From positions 682,001 through 746,000 of the forward strand of contig NZ_CP099993.1 of assembly GCF_024138125.1 (NCBI RefSeq): a stretch of DNA of 64,000 nt, in the 5' to 3' direction. Position 1 is the stretch's first letter. Each line of letters opens with the position of its first letter. Made by a program: the position numbers and the translations under genes. Source of the stretch: Halorussus salilacus. Its GTDB lineage: Archaea > Halobacteriota > Halobacteria > Halobacteriales > Haladaptataceae. Shown here one piece after another: positions 22,877-55,355 of the stretch. The notes under the pieces are model-generated. The model worked only from the letters and a program-made list of their open reading frames with translations, did no database searches and had not been told where the DNA came from.

Positions 22877-22952
22877 GTCTCGGACTGGATTCGAACCGAA
22901 CGTCCGGCGACGGAGCGACACCGATTTGACGCTGGGCCGGGAGGGTCCGGAC

Positions 22953-23873: not shown

Positions 23874-24000
23874 CGTACGATTCGTTTCTCTTTCGTTCGG
23901 CTTCGGTTCCGTCTCGCGGTCTGCTTCGATTCCATTTGTCGGTCTGCTTCAATTCCATCTCTTCGAAAGTGGCGATTCCTCGCGCGTCACAACTGAGAGA

Positions 24001-24120
24001 CCGCAACCACACGCCTCCCCAACCGACTGCGGTCCTCGGTCGCTTCGCTCCCTGCGGTCCTCATCCCTCACGCGGTTGGCGCGGCCCCAAACTGCGGGGC
24101 CGCGCCAGCACACGCCAAGG
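24001..24120 (+). repeat. Family B dispersed hairpin element, copy 1
   Basis: It shares with four other places in the window the blocks CCTCCCCAACCGACTGCG, TCATCCCTC and CGCGCCAGCAC. A perfect 11-base hairpin (24078-24088 with 24096-24106) forms its 3' half. It lies in the 777-base gap after the epimerase gene. No protein is encoded. The downstream short inverted repeat 24121-24157 abuts it. Confidence 0.8.
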
Positions 24121-24191: not shown

Positions 24192-24508
24192 GGGACTGAA
24201 AGGGGCCGCCCGCTCGCGGTCACGCGAGGGAAGCGAGTGTGACCTCGGGAGACGCGGTTTGTCTCCCGGCGTTTACGTGGTCGTCTCAGCGACCCCTATC
24301 CGAGCGAGCGAGGATATATCGCTGAGCGGCCTCCTCGTGAGCGAAGTCTGCGCGAGCGAAGCGAGCGCAGGCTCGTCGGAGCATGCTCCGACGGTGCGAA
24401 CGAGGGCTCGGCAGAGCGGAGCTCTGCCGGTGGCGAGCGGGCGGGGGCTTTCTGGGCGGGCTCGTTCACGGACTCTGTTTTTCGTAGCGAGCGGGCGGGG
24501 GCTTTCTG
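24192..24508 (+). repeat. Family A dispersed element, copy 1 (expanded form)
   Basis: It begins GGGACTGAAAGGGGCCGCC and ends in two copies of GCGAGCGGGCGGGGGCTTTC. The internal stem is CAGCGAC/ATCGCTG (24287-24293 with 24318-24324), then CCCT opposite AT, then ATCC/GGAT. Compared with copies 2 and 3 it carries extra hairpins, for instance GTCGGAGCATGCTCCGAC and GGGAGAC...GTCTCCC. It is oriented like both flanking genes (epimerase, arginase). No credible reading frame is present. Confidence 0.85.
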
Positions 24509-24650: not shown

Positions 24651-25571
24651 ATGAACCGACAGGTGCGGATAATCGGCGCGCCGATGGACCTGGGAGCGAA
24701 CCGACGCGGCGTCGACATGGGACCCTCGGCCATCCGGTACGCGGGACTGGCCGACGAACTCCGGGCGGCGGGCGTCGACCCGACCGACGCGGGCGACCTG
24801 CTGGTGCCCCGCGCCGAGGAGCGCGACCCCGACGCAGAGCAACCCTCCGAGGGCTCGGCGAAGTTCCTGCGCGAGACCGCAGACGTGTGCACCCGTCTCG
24901 CCGACGAGGTCGCCGGAGCGCTCGACGCCGAGGCGTTCCCGCTGGTGCTGGGCGGCGACCACTCCATCGCCATCGGCACGATGCGCGGCGCGGGCCGGGA
25001 CGCAGACCTCGGGGCGATCTGGTTCGACGCCCACGGCGACTTCAACACGCCCGCGACCTCGCCGAGCGGCAACGTCCACGGCATGCCGCTGGCGGCCGCG
25101 CTCGGCGTCGGCGACTTCGCCGACACCGAGTGGGCCAACGTCCCCACGCTCCGCGAGGAGAACGTCGCCATCGTGGGCCTCCGTAGCCTCGACGACACCG
25201 AGCGCGAGGAGGTCCTCGACAGCGACGTGACCGTCTACACCATGTCCGACATCGACGAGCGCGGGGTCGTCCCGGTCACCGAGGACGCCCTCGACGTTGC
25301 GACCGACGGCGTCGACGGCGTCCACGTCAGCCTCGACCTCGACTGGCTCGACCCCAAGGAAGCGCCCGGCGTCGGCACGCCCGTCCGGGGCGGGGTCACC
25401 TACCGGGAGGCCCACTCCGCGCTGGAGACGGTCGCCGAGCGCGACGAGGCCGAGGGCGTCCTCCGGTCGATGGAGGTCGTCGAGGTCAATCCGATTCTGG
25501 ACGAACACAACGAGACCGCCGAGCTGGCGACTGAACTGGCCGCGAGCGCGGTCGGGAAAAGAATCCTCTGA
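24651..25571 (+). CDS. rocF: Arginase (ureohydrolase family)
   Basis: 306 residues. The two-manganese site is intact: GGDHS (His104), D126-A-H128-G-D130 and D229-x-D231 in SLDLDWLDP. Motifs favour arginase over agmatinase, but both share this site. It hydrolyses arginine to ornithine and urea in nitrogen catabolism. It starts 143 bases after a family A element. The enzyme class is confident and the substrate moderately so. Confidence 0.88.
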   Translation: MNRQVRIIGAPMDLGANRRGVDMGPSAIRYAGLADELRAAGVDPTDAGDLLVPRAEERDPDAEQPSEGSAKFLRETADVCTRLADEVAGALDAEAFPLVLGGDHSIAIGTMRGAGRDADLGAIWFDAHGDFNTPATSPSGNVHGMPLAAALGVGDFADTEWANVPTLREENVAIVGLRSLDDTEREEVLDSDVTVYTMSDIDERGVVPVTEDALDVATDGVDGVHVSLDLDWLDPKEAPGVGTPVRGGVTYREAHSALETVAERDEAEGVLRSMEVVEVNPILDEHNETAELATELAASAVGKRIL

Positions 25572-43103: not shown

Positions 43104-43201
43104 CTCCGGCGGGAGTGACGTGACCACCGGGTTCGGAGACGAATCGCCCGTCGAGACCGACCTCGGGAATCGTCCGATGAACCATCCGCCGAGAACCGCC
43201 C

Positions 43202-43300
43202 GGTGACACAGTCCACCGTGAAACGGCCGGTGACACAGTCCACAGGAAAACGGCCGATTGCGCAGTCCACGGGAAAACGACCGGTGACACAGTCCACCAT
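43202..43300 (+). repeat. 27-base tandem repeat at the 5' side of family A copy 2
   Basis: Four units (about GGTGACACAGTCCACCGTGA plus AACGGCC) with a few changes. The same array, inverted, borders family A copy 3 at 51607-51700. Confidence 0.88.
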
Positions 43301-43530
43301 CGGGTGGGACTGAAAGGGGCCGCCCGCTCGCGCTTGCGTGGTCGTCTGGCCGACCCCTATCCGCGCGCGGTTTGCGCGGATATGTCGGCCAGCGACCGCG
43401 AGCGGGCGGGGGCTTTCTGGGTGTTAGTCGTGGAGTGTTCGCAGAGGGTTCGTAGCGAGCGGGTGGGGGCTTTCTGGGCGTTCTCGGTTTTGGAAGTGGT
43501 AGCTCGTAGCGAGCGGGCGGGGGCTTTCTG
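43202..43530 (+). repeat. Family A dispersed element, copy 2
   Basis: Array 43202-43300, then a 65-base block shared exactly with copy 3, then the internal hairpin GGCCGAC-CCCT-ATCCGCGC / GCGCGGAT-AT-GTCGGCC (43348-43390). A second shared block follows, with three GCGAGCGGG(C/T)GGGGGCTTTC arms. It fills the gap between the UPF0212 and GNAT genes and has the same direction as both. Short frames through it have no coding support. Confidence 0.88.
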
Positions 43531-44764: not shown

Positions 44765-44812
44765 GCCCAGAAAGCCCCTGCGTGCTCGCGGTCGCACAGG
44801 CCCTTTCAGTCC
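44765..44812 (-). repeat. Family A element, minimal hairpin form
   Basis: On the minus strand it runs GGACTGAAAGGGCCTGTGCG, then ACCGCGAGCACGCA, then GGGGCTTTCTGGGC. It keeps the outer GAAAG/CTTTC pairing and a GCG-based stem but lacks the long internal stem. It lies in the divergent gap between dodecin and YchF and is co-directional with dodecin. Confidence 0.75.
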
Positions 44813-44830
44813 GACCGACAGCAGCGCGAC

Positions 44831-44983
44831 CGCGACCGCGACCGCAGGCCTCGAACCTCCCCAGCCTCTTGCGTTTCTCGGTCGCTCACTACGTTCGCTT
44901 CCTGCGATACTCATCCCTCGCGCGTGTCGGCGCGGCCGTCGGTCGCTTCGCTCCCGACGACCGCGCCAGCACGCGCCGGGCGG
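44831..44983 (+). repeat. Family B dispersed hairpin element, copy 2
   Basis: It contains ACCGCAGGCC, CCTCCCCAGCC, CTCATCCCTCGCGCG and CGCGCCAGCACGCGCC. The terminal hairpin arm is GGCGCGGCCGTCGG (44929-44942), matched with one mismatch by CCGACGACCGCGCC. It occupies most of the gap before YchF. Confidence 0.8.
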
Positions 44984-45087
44984 AGTAGTTCACGTTCGAG
45001 ACGGTCGCTGGACCACTCGGACTTCACATCTCCCCCGAAGTCCACGGAACCGAAAGGCAGTTCCCCCGGACGCCGGTACACTCTCGC

Positions 45088-51362: not shown

Positions 51363-51699
51363 GAAAGCCCCCGCCCGCTCGCTACGAGCTACCACTTCCA
51401 AAACCGAGAACGCCCAGAAAGCCCCCGCCCGCTCGCTACGAACCCTCTGCGAACACTCCACGACTAACACCCAGAAAGCCCCCGCCCGCTCGCGGTCGCT
51501 CCGGCGGATATTCGGCGCTCTCCGCAACGCCCGCGCCGAATGGAGCCGCCGGAGACGACCACGCAAGCGCGAGCGGGCGGCCCCTTTCAGTCCCACCCGA
51601 TGGTGGACTGTGTCACCGGCCGTTTTTCGGTGGACTGTGTCACCGGCCGTTTTCCCGTGGATTGCGTCACCGGCCGATTCTCGGTGGACCGTGTCACCG
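51363..51699 (-). repeat. Family A dispersed element, copy 3
   Basis: Read on the minus strand, it matches copy 2 exactly across the GGGACTGAAAGGGGC block and, with one mismatch, across the following 3' block. In between it has the different hairpin CCGGCGG-CTCC-ATTCGGCGC / GCGCCGAAT-AT-CCGCCGG (51501-51552). It is oriented like its flanking genes and carries the 27-base array at 51607-51700. Confidence 0.9.
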
Positions 51700-51700
51700 A
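51607..51700 (-). repeat. 27-base tandem repeat linked to family A copy 3
   Basis: About three and a half copies of GGCCGTTTTTCGGTGGACTG plus TGTCACC, the complement of the array at 43202-43300. Confidence 0.88.
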
Positions 51701-51710
51701 GCGCGACGAC

Positions 51711-52076
51711 CTACGCACGCCGCGCCGGAACGCCGGTCAACAGTTGGGCGGTGTCGGTCAGGTCCCGAGTGTCAACCACCAGTTCGGCGATCTCTCGGAG
51801 CGTGAACGCGGCGTCGATGTCGCGGCCGTGACACCGGGCGTAGAGTTCGAGCCAGTCGTTGAGCGCGCGCTCCAGCAGGGCCATCTCCGCGGCGTCGAGC
51901 GGGACGAACTCGCCGGTCCGAGCCTCGACGTAGACCGCGACCGCGTCGCCGACGCCCTCCCGGAGGTATCGCAGAGCGCGCTCGTCGTCGGGCGGGTCGT
52001 CGGGCGGGTCGAACGCCTCGCGGTCCTCGCGAGCGCGGTCGGCGAGGTCGGCGATTCGCTCGCGAAGCTCGCTCAT
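51711..52076 (-). CDS. Hypothetical acidic helical protein linked to fixCX
   Basis: 121 residues, mostly charged helices (ELRERIADLADRAREDREAF, MALLERALNDWLELYARC). Two sites could bind substrate or metal: CHGRD and the ending LLTGVPARRA. It overlaps the fixCX stop by 4 bases in an ATGA junction, so it is the last gene of the fix operon. It could be an assembly or stability factor for the ETF-quinone oxidoreductase; this is inference. Confidence 0.68.
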   Translation of the reverse strand: MSELRERIADLADRAREDREAFDPPDDPPDDERALRYLREGVGDAVAVYVEARTGEFVPLDAAEMALLERALNDWLELYARCHGRDIDAAFTLREIAELVVDTRDLTDTAQLLTGVPARRA

Positions 52077-53740: not shown

Positions 53741-55355
53741 CGCTCGCCTCCGCTCGCAGGGTCAGTTCGCCCGCCTCGACGGATTCGGTCAGGCGGGGGA
53801 GCACCTCGAAGAGGTCGCCCTCGATGAAGTAGTCGCTGAAGTCCCGGATTCGGGCCTCGGGGTCGGTGTTGATGGCGACGATGGTGTCGGATTCGTCCAT
53901 CCCGACCTTGTGCTGGACCGCGCCCGAGATTCCGGCCGCGATGTAGAGTCGGGGTTCGACCTCTTGGCCGGTCTCGCCGATCTGCCGTTCCTCGGCGACG
54001 TAGTCGGCGACGTGGCCGTCGACGCTGTAGGAGGCCGTGACCACGCCCCGCGAGAGGCCGAGCGCGGCGTCCTCGAAGGCCTCGACGAGGTCGATACCGA
54101 GTTCGATTCCCTCGGTCGGGTCGTCGCCGATGCCGCGCCCGAGCGCGACCACCACGTCGTGGCCGGTGAGGTCGACGCCGTCGTCGAGGCGGTCCCACTC
54201 GGACACCTCCACCCGGAACCAGTCGTCGGGGAGGTCGAGGTCGTGCTCGACGAGTTCGCCCTCTCGGTCGTGGTCGGGGTCGATGGCGTCGAAACTGCCG
54301 GGAATCACCGAACACCCCTGCGGGTGGAACTCCCGGCCGGGGTTGTCGAGACACAGAATCGTGGAGTACTCGAACCCCGAGAAGTCGGGGCGCTTCATGT
54401 GGAGGACGCGCTCGAACTCCACCTTCTCGCCGGGTTCGCCCGTCTTGACCGGGTTGGAGATGAGTTCCTCCTCGATGGAGAGTCCCGAGCAGTCGCTCGC
54501 CAGCCCGGAGTCGAGTTCGCCCTGCACCTGCGCCGAGAGGTCCCGGCCGTTGTTGGTCGCCGGGAACAGGAAGTAGCGGGGCTTGTCGTAGTCGCGCCAG
54601 TCGACGGTGGGTTCGGTGCCGGGGTCGCCGGTCGCCCAGTTCGGAGGGTCTGCGCCGCCGCGGGCCATGTCCGAGACGATCTCGGTGTAGGGCTTGTGGC
54701 GGAAGCGTTCGAGTCGGTCGTCCTCGTGGTATATCGCCACGTCGGCGCCGTAGGCGACCGCCTCCTCGGCGAGCGGCTCCATCTCGTCGCCGACGAGGAC
54801 GCCGACGACTCGCTCGTCCCCACCGTCGGACTCATCCGACGAGCCTCCGTTCGCTTCGCTCACGGAGACGCCGTAGTCGTCGTTGTAGCCGTCCATCAGG
54901 TCGCGGGCCTTCCCGAGCATCTCCTTCGAGACGTCGAGGAGTTCGCCGCCCTGGGTCTCGCAGTAGACCCACATGTCCCGATACGTGCCGCCCTTCAGCG
55001 CGCGGACGTGGTGCTTGTCCCACGTCCGGTTCTCGACCTCGTAGCTCACGTCGGTCTCGTCTGGCGATTCGTCTCCCTGTTCTGCATCGCCTGCCGCCTC
55101 GGGAGTGTCGGTGCCTTCTTCGCCCGCGTACTCCTCCTCGTGGTCGGTGTCTGTCGGTTCGCCTTCGGTTTCCACCTCCAACGCGTCGATGCGCTTCCGG
55201 ATGGCCTCCTTGGCGGTCTTGCGGTCCTTCCCCGACTCCTCGGCCGCCAGCACCGCGTCGAGGTCCGAGGGGTTCGACACCGCGTTCAGCTCCGCTTCGA
55301 GTTCGTCGACCGTGTACTCGCTCGGGTCGAGGCCCGCGTCTGTCTCGTCGGCCAC
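53733..55355 (-). CDS. fixB: Electron transfer flavoprotein alpha subunit, FixB, with N-terminal extension
   Basis: 540 residues, much longer than standard ETF-alpha (about 310). Residues 1-60 form a small helical module (DPSEYTVDELEAELNAVSNP ... GKDRKTAKEAIRKRID), perhaps SAP/Rho-N-like, followed by an acidic linker. The canonical alpha domain lies in the C-terminal half, with GETGQEVEPRLYIAAGISGA and DTIVAINTDPEARI (FAD site). It pairs with FixA. The start is ATG 55355, two bases after fixA ends. Confidence 0.93.
   Translation of the reverse strand: MADETDAGLDPSEYTVDELEAELNAVSNPSDLDAVLAAEESGKDRKTAKEAIRKRIDALEVETEGEPTDTDHEEEYAGEEGTDTPEAAGDAEQGDESPDETDVSYEVENRTWDKHHVRALKGGTYRDMWVYCETQGGELLDVSKEMLGKARDLMDGYNDDYGVSVSEANGGSSDESDGGDERVVGVLVGDEMEPLAEEAVAYGADVAIYHEDDRLERFRHKPYTEIVSDMARGGADPPNWATGDPGTEPTVDWRDYDKPRYFLFPATNNGRDLSAQVQGELDSGLASDCSGLSIEEELISNPVKTGEPGEKVEFERVLHMKRPDFSGFEYSTILCLDNPGREFHPQGCSVIPGSFDAIDPDHDREGELVEHDLDLPDDWFRVEVSEWDRLDDGVDLTGHDVVVALGRGIGDDPTEGIELGIDLVEAFEDAALGLSRGVVTASYSVDGHVADYVAEERQIGETGQEVEPRLYIAAGISGAVQHKVGMDESDTIVAINTDPEARIRDFSDYFIEGDLFEVLPRLTESVEAGELTLRAEASDD

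Follow-up and report, generated by a model that had tools for sequence, protein, structure and literature searches.

The window analyzed here comprises 64,000 nt of Halorussus salilacus contig NZ_CP099993.1 (assembly GCF_024138125.1, positions 682,001-746,000 of the forward strand). It carries a 261-nt element that is copy 1 of a repeat designated family A (24192-24452, plus strand). The flanking genes, both on the plus strand and named by reading their sequences, are NAD-epimerase-like (start near 22926, stop 23873) and, on the other side, speB-like, of the arginase/agmatinase family (24651-25571). The copy lies upstream of TTCTTTA, a promoter-like motif that precedes speB and is conserved among the species compared. 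The original prediction extended the element to 24508; the element is real, but its nearest right arm ends at 24452, and we take 24192-24452 as the true span because the further right arm at 24487-24506 belongs to a 54-nt tandem unit (24453-24506, plus strand) located 3′ of the copy and outside the element proper. Another intergenic repeat, family B (GGCTGGGGAGG), often stands directly upstream of A elements, as at 24000-24115 and 44820-45000 (both minus strand) in the window and at loci L025, L061, L065, L070, and L080.

Copy 1 begins with the conserved left arm GGGACTGAAAGGGGCC (24192-24207), whose exact 15-mer, GGGACTGAAAGGGGC, is found 57 times in this genome as against 0 for the reversed control, and it ends with the right arm GCGAGCGGGCGGGGGCTTTC (24433-24452), the partner of the left arm and outer stem. 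The core (24277-24328) consists of a GGTCG strand, the stem CAGCGAC/ATCGCTG, a CCCT/AT internal loop, and an apical hairpin; GTGGTCGTCT is read at 24277-24286, and the stem, which starts at 24287, pairs at six of seven positions. The left arm, lead-in, internal stem, internal loop, and CTTTC arm that had been described from the letters alone are all present at their coordinates. Four or more additional perfect hairpins had also been claimed, and we read five: GGGAGAC/GTCTCCC, GTCGGAGC/GCTCCGAC, GGTCAC/GTGACC, CTGCG/CGCAG, and GGCAGAGC/GCTCTGCC. These hairpins are real, but they are copies of a separate dispersed repeat, XY, rather than free-form growth of the element. Three XY modules, each a double hairpin on the plus strand, are accommodated in copy 1: the 5′ junction of the fold is occupied by module 1 (24218-24271; XY model match, E = 2e-8), the 3′ junction by module 2 (24332-24432), and module 3 (24347-24396; E = 1.8e-10) lies nested within module 2, interrupting its first hairpin. 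Folded as RNA, copy 1 has a z-score of -4.5, and no shuffled sequence folds as well.

The window holds two further standard copies of family A, at 43306-43417 (plus strand, a short copy) and at 51474-51594 (minus strand, with a different inner stem), each followed by two more right arms, those of the former reaching about 43528. A short A-type hairpin at 44767-44813 (minus strand), read by eye, has a left arm, one stem, and a right arm without a core, and folds no better than shuffled sequences (z = -0.02); an XY double hairpin at 54821-54868 (minus strand; E = 2.9e-9) lies within no A element. We discounted a near-match to the left arm at 1250-1265, which lies within coding sequence, lacks a right arm, is missed by the model, and is probably due to chance. 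Some copies (L009, L038, L039, and 43418-43528 in the window) are followed by a tandem series of right arms at intervals of 54-57 nt, each of them a potential partner of the one left arm, and the pattern is seen with different stem sequences in other genera (L080, L084). A tandem array of units of approximately 24-27 nt (CCGGTGACACAGTCCACCGAAAACGG) separates the left arm of many A elements from the upstream gene, including 43180-43305 and 51600-51720 (minus strand) in the window and many other loci of this genome. Searched against Rfam at the gathering threshold, the entire window gives only an S15-Halobacteria ribosomal leader (RF03143, 8297-8362) and tRNA, leaving the A element unmatched; at a lax threshold the element gives only weak matches at chance level. 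Literature searches with sequence strings from A and XY returned only unrelated papers.

A covariance model built from 41 copies, the check proposed with the original prediction, detects 95 copies in this genome (G000) at E <= 1e-6 and matches 122 of 292 genomes of the class at E <= 1e-4, so that structurally consistent relatives were indeed found; some of the weakest of these 122 may be GC-rich hairpins that match by chance. On inspection, the 25 best distant matches plainly have the same fold, good matches occur in other haloarchaeal families, and close relatives reside on plasmids of Haloarcula and Haladaptatus. Standard copies measure 112-140 nt. Copy number among 17 Halorussus congeners varies widely (0, 1, 6, 9, 10, 22, 23, 33, 41, 50, 50, 57, 65, 84, 85, 87, and 141, the value of 84 coming from a genome, G011, that is 62% complete), and the congener with 0 copies, G008, branches among species with 33-57 in a tree of one 20-kb region (support 0.83-0.84). 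Haloarcula has one A copy at a conserved place (L066, L067, L069, L072, L073, L075, L081-L083; L164 is on plasmid pNG500). The pNG500 copy precedes an SSB-like (SOSS B) gene by approximately 500 nt, with a DNA-binding protein of type IV secretion encoded nearby, a setting that by analogy recalls the single-stranded DNA hairpin promoters of conjugative plasmids. Blastn found no match in phage records, and on that ground we rejected a phage origin for the repeat.

At the speB site, the two genes are adjacent in 16 species; 3 of these (G000, G012, and G015) have an A element, and most of the others have instead a spacer of 41-118 nt. When 21 loci of G010 were sampled, 11 matched element loci of G000 by their flanking sequence, and the inner stems at these shared loci often differ wholesale. 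Outer stem sequences are typical of each genome, and in seven copies of G000 a G stands opposite a G in the outer stem, as expected of an old left arm combined with a new right arm. Together, the mismatched outer stems and changed inner stems look like turnover or conversion at standing sites.

The claim that family A is conserved at the level of structure is supported by covariation. Among 97 distinct copies from G000, 98.2% of paired cells are standard pairs (shuffled, 85.5%), compensatory double changes occur in 31 of 39 pairs (shuffled mean, 14.9), and 394 cells are doubly changed as compared with 102 in shuffled alignments, a number that collapses to 10-30 in slid controls. That alignment was fitted to the model and so leans towards the structure; in an unfitted MAFFT alignment of 41 copies, double changes occur in 20 of 39 pairs. 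Covariation above both the shuffled and the slid controls fits a structured RNA or a single-stranded DNA alike. Over three sets of sequences, G-U outnumbers A-C in the stems by 50 to 7 (the cells are not independent events), and the plus strand is therefore the strand that is kept foldable. Within G000, G-U makes up 0.5% of A stem pairs versus 4.2% in the stems of 14 tRNAs from the same genome (Fisher p = 1e-4), a rarity that is unusual for RNA.

In nearly all copies the GAAAG/CTTTC arms and the outer stem pair, forming an outer capsule, GGGACTGAAAG-GGG ... GGG-CTTTC, around a jointed core hairpin. The stems vary, with sequences particular to each genome, and the junctions and loops stay conserved. 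The internal loop of GGG opposite GGG in the outer stem is conserved across the A copies (A1, columns 12-14); other genera have GG-C-GA-G / C-GA-GG-G in its place, a sequence in which tandem G.A pairs could form. We tried and rejected CGA-NN-GNA-NN-GAG (tandem GA with a GNA triloop) as a DNA motif enriched genome-wide; no enrichment was seen across 397 kb of DNA, most of it coding, and a loop tally proved too noisy for use. A second, unrelated core (GACGTAAGCAC ... CGCAGCGAG) occurs in the same outer capsule at L008, L029 (minus strand), L031, and L049, and at L068, L074, and L079, where the copy and a standard A element face each other head to head.

XY is a unit of approximately 50 nt in which two hairpins are joined by CTCG and which ends in GGTG or GGCG. 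In 19 copies, 98.2% of cells pair, with 63 doubly changed cells versus 19.6 in shuffled alignments. The XY model, whose training copies came mostly from G000, finds 56 copies in that genome and 14-128 in each of the 18 Halorussus genomes searched, including G008, which has no A element. The growth by hairpin insertion envisaged in the original prediction takes the form of exact XY insertions. The paralogues L018 and L019 are nearly identical (2 mismatches over the 125 nt that they share) apart from one 51-nt XY in the apical loop of L018, and the orthologue of L018 in G010 (L161) is without XY; module 2 of copy 1 is identical to the module at L140 except for one nested 50-nt XY. As regards target-site duplication, the L018 insert is flanked on both sides by GTG, which may be the module's own end, and the ends of an insert at L014 are ambiguous by only 1 nt. 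All 13 XY units within A or XY copies sit at unpaired positions (several may share descent), of four kinds: either junction (5′ or 3′), the apical loop, and the loop of a further XY.

How might such an element persist? The serious rival to an explanation based on mobility is a role as RNA at the level of the UTR: the element could function in 3′ UTRs or in intergenic read-through, bound by protein or stabilizing or ending transcripts, and copies would be kept for that purpose. REP/BIME sequences in enterobacteria can act in this way in transcripts. Plus-strand pairing with its G-U excess over A-C (50 to 7) and variable stems between conserved junctions and loops are what one sees in functional RNAs. 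The copies of G000 are intergenic, with two apparent exceptions as called by our home-made gene caller; of those between tandem genes, 36 are in sense orientation and 12 run antisense to both neighbors (p = 0.0007), and this bias, like the 11 of 21 sampled G010 loci that correspond to element loci of G000, speaks for the RNA role. The same 12 antisense copies speak against it, as do 24 copies between divergent genes (15 lie between convergent genes), the rarity of G-U, and the congeners with 0 copies (G008) and 1 copy (G013). Further, the median distance from an A copy to the next gene is 153 nt and most haloarchaeal mRNAs are leaderless, so many copies lie upstream of the promoter, and we noticed no TATA-like sequence before the A element. 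On balance we consider an RNA role possible rather than likely.

Selection for structure could be dispensed with if the perfect stems were a by-product of DNA metabolism, through template switching and gene conversion between arms. Such an origin would suit the near absence of G-U intermediates in G000, the many C-G to G-C swaps, the homogenization of outer stems in each genome, and the G opposite G between the arms of the seven mismatched copies. We think it improbable: a ratio of 50 G-U to 7 A-C requires one strand to be under selection, and correction between arms would erase the CCCT/AT and GGG/GGG loops, which are unpaired and conserved. Still harder to credit is a transcription terminator or an insulator between genes; GC-rich intergenic hairpins, often with several right arms in series, could suggest one, but no T-run follows the element (CTTTC gives way to GC-rich sequence) and its orientation does not follow that of the upstream gene, with which 56 of 95 copies share a strand.

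We favor DNA mobility over RNA function with moderate confidence, and we assign a probability of roughly 55% to the reading of copy 1 as an intergenic, dispersed repeat that has no transposase, conserves the fold of its plus strand, carries XY copies in its unpaired junctions, and spreads as DNA. Both A and XY would spread as DNA, probably by way of a hairpin in single-stranded DNA exposed during replication or recombination, which an enzyme acting in trans may recognize or copy; standing copies might then be homogenized within each genome. XY modules can accumulate because insertion at unpaired positions leaves the fold of the host element intact, and a function for the host organism would not be needed. 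Mobility is favored by the lineage-specific presence of the element at the speB site, at the level of species, by the range of 0-141 copies within one genus, by the exact ends of XY and its absence from L161, by the branching of the copy-free G008 among species with 33-57 copies, by the unpaired sites of the 13 XY units, by the covariation, by the plus-strand G-U excess over A-C together with the rarity of G-U relative to tRNA stems, by the location of copy 1 upstream of the conserved speB motif, and by the two core types that share the same ends. Against it, the 11 of 21 G010 loci shared with G000 point to retention or site preference beyond what free hopping would give, the sense bias of 36 to 12 is unexplained by DNA mobility alone, the inserts give no clear target-site duplication, and a mobilizer did not come to light. 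Our transposase search covered the Y1 family: Y1_Tnp (PF01797; IS200-type) is absent from four congeners rich in A copies (G010, with 85; G002, 87; G003, 57; and G001, 50), so that a Y1 transposase shows no association with copy number and was rejected as the mobilizer of A, along with derivation from REP/RAYT or IS200/IS605 elements, which would call for this HUH enzyme. No autonomous copy is apparent in G000, where no pair among the listed arms encloses a gene-sized stretch and a left arm is found within about 500 nt of nearly every right arm; a MITE with an autonomous partner of the same ends was rejected for that genome.

More speculatively, A and XY might constitute a two-tier system that replicates structure, the 50-nt XY inserting into exposed loops of A and of itself. 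In recognition their fold would count for more than their sequence, and an undescribed enzyme of the host or of the element would spread both. Whatever the mechanism, the two repeats combine strong covariation and exact insertion units and yet match nothing in Rfam or in the literature searched by string. Their natural pairs with and without the insert offer a system for asking how transposase-free repeats spread, and they carry a warning that strong covariation alone is no proof of a functional RNA.

Several known repeat systems bear comparison. REP/BIME sequences with their RAYT (Y1) enzymes resemble family A in having many intergenic hairpin copies; family A differs in its occurrence in several copy-rich genomes without Y1, in its much larger, jointed, covarying structure, and in its nested modules. 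The PATEs and IS605-type elements of haloarchaea are likewise palindromic, non-coding, and dispersed, but PATEs have near-terminal palindromes at each end and a parent with a Y1 transposase (PMC3119063), whereas an A element is one long hairpin with both ends paired and no link to Y1. The repetitive hairpin and double-hairpin elements of mitochondria, in sponges (PMC2800124) and as the GC clusters of yeast (PMC4478555), share with A and XY their short single or double hairpins, their dispersal in intergenic DNA, and the lack of an established mechanism of spreading; the sponge elements have conserved stems and variable loops (PMC2800124), the opposite of A and XY, in which stem changes are compensated and loops and junctions are conserved. 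In behavior and general traits, A and XY are most comparable to the small mobile repeats (SMRs) of Haloquadratum walsbyi. SMR-A and SMR-B are non-coding, approximately 80-110 bp long, and bounded by terminal inverted repeats unrelated to known transposons; SMR-A inserts into palindromes of other elements, and the mobilization of SMRs has been called enigmatic (PMC3119063). A and XY are also haloarchaeal and non-coding, and XY inserts into the hairpins of A and XY much as SMR-A does into palindromes. Family A has the terminal inverted repeats, is too short to code, and shows lineage-specific insertion at the species level, as seen at the speB site, in the L018/L019 and module 2/L140 pairs, and in the L161 orthologue. 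SMR copies of one type are commonly >95% identical (PMC3119063), unlike those of A and XY, in which the structure is kept and the sequence of the stems is changed.
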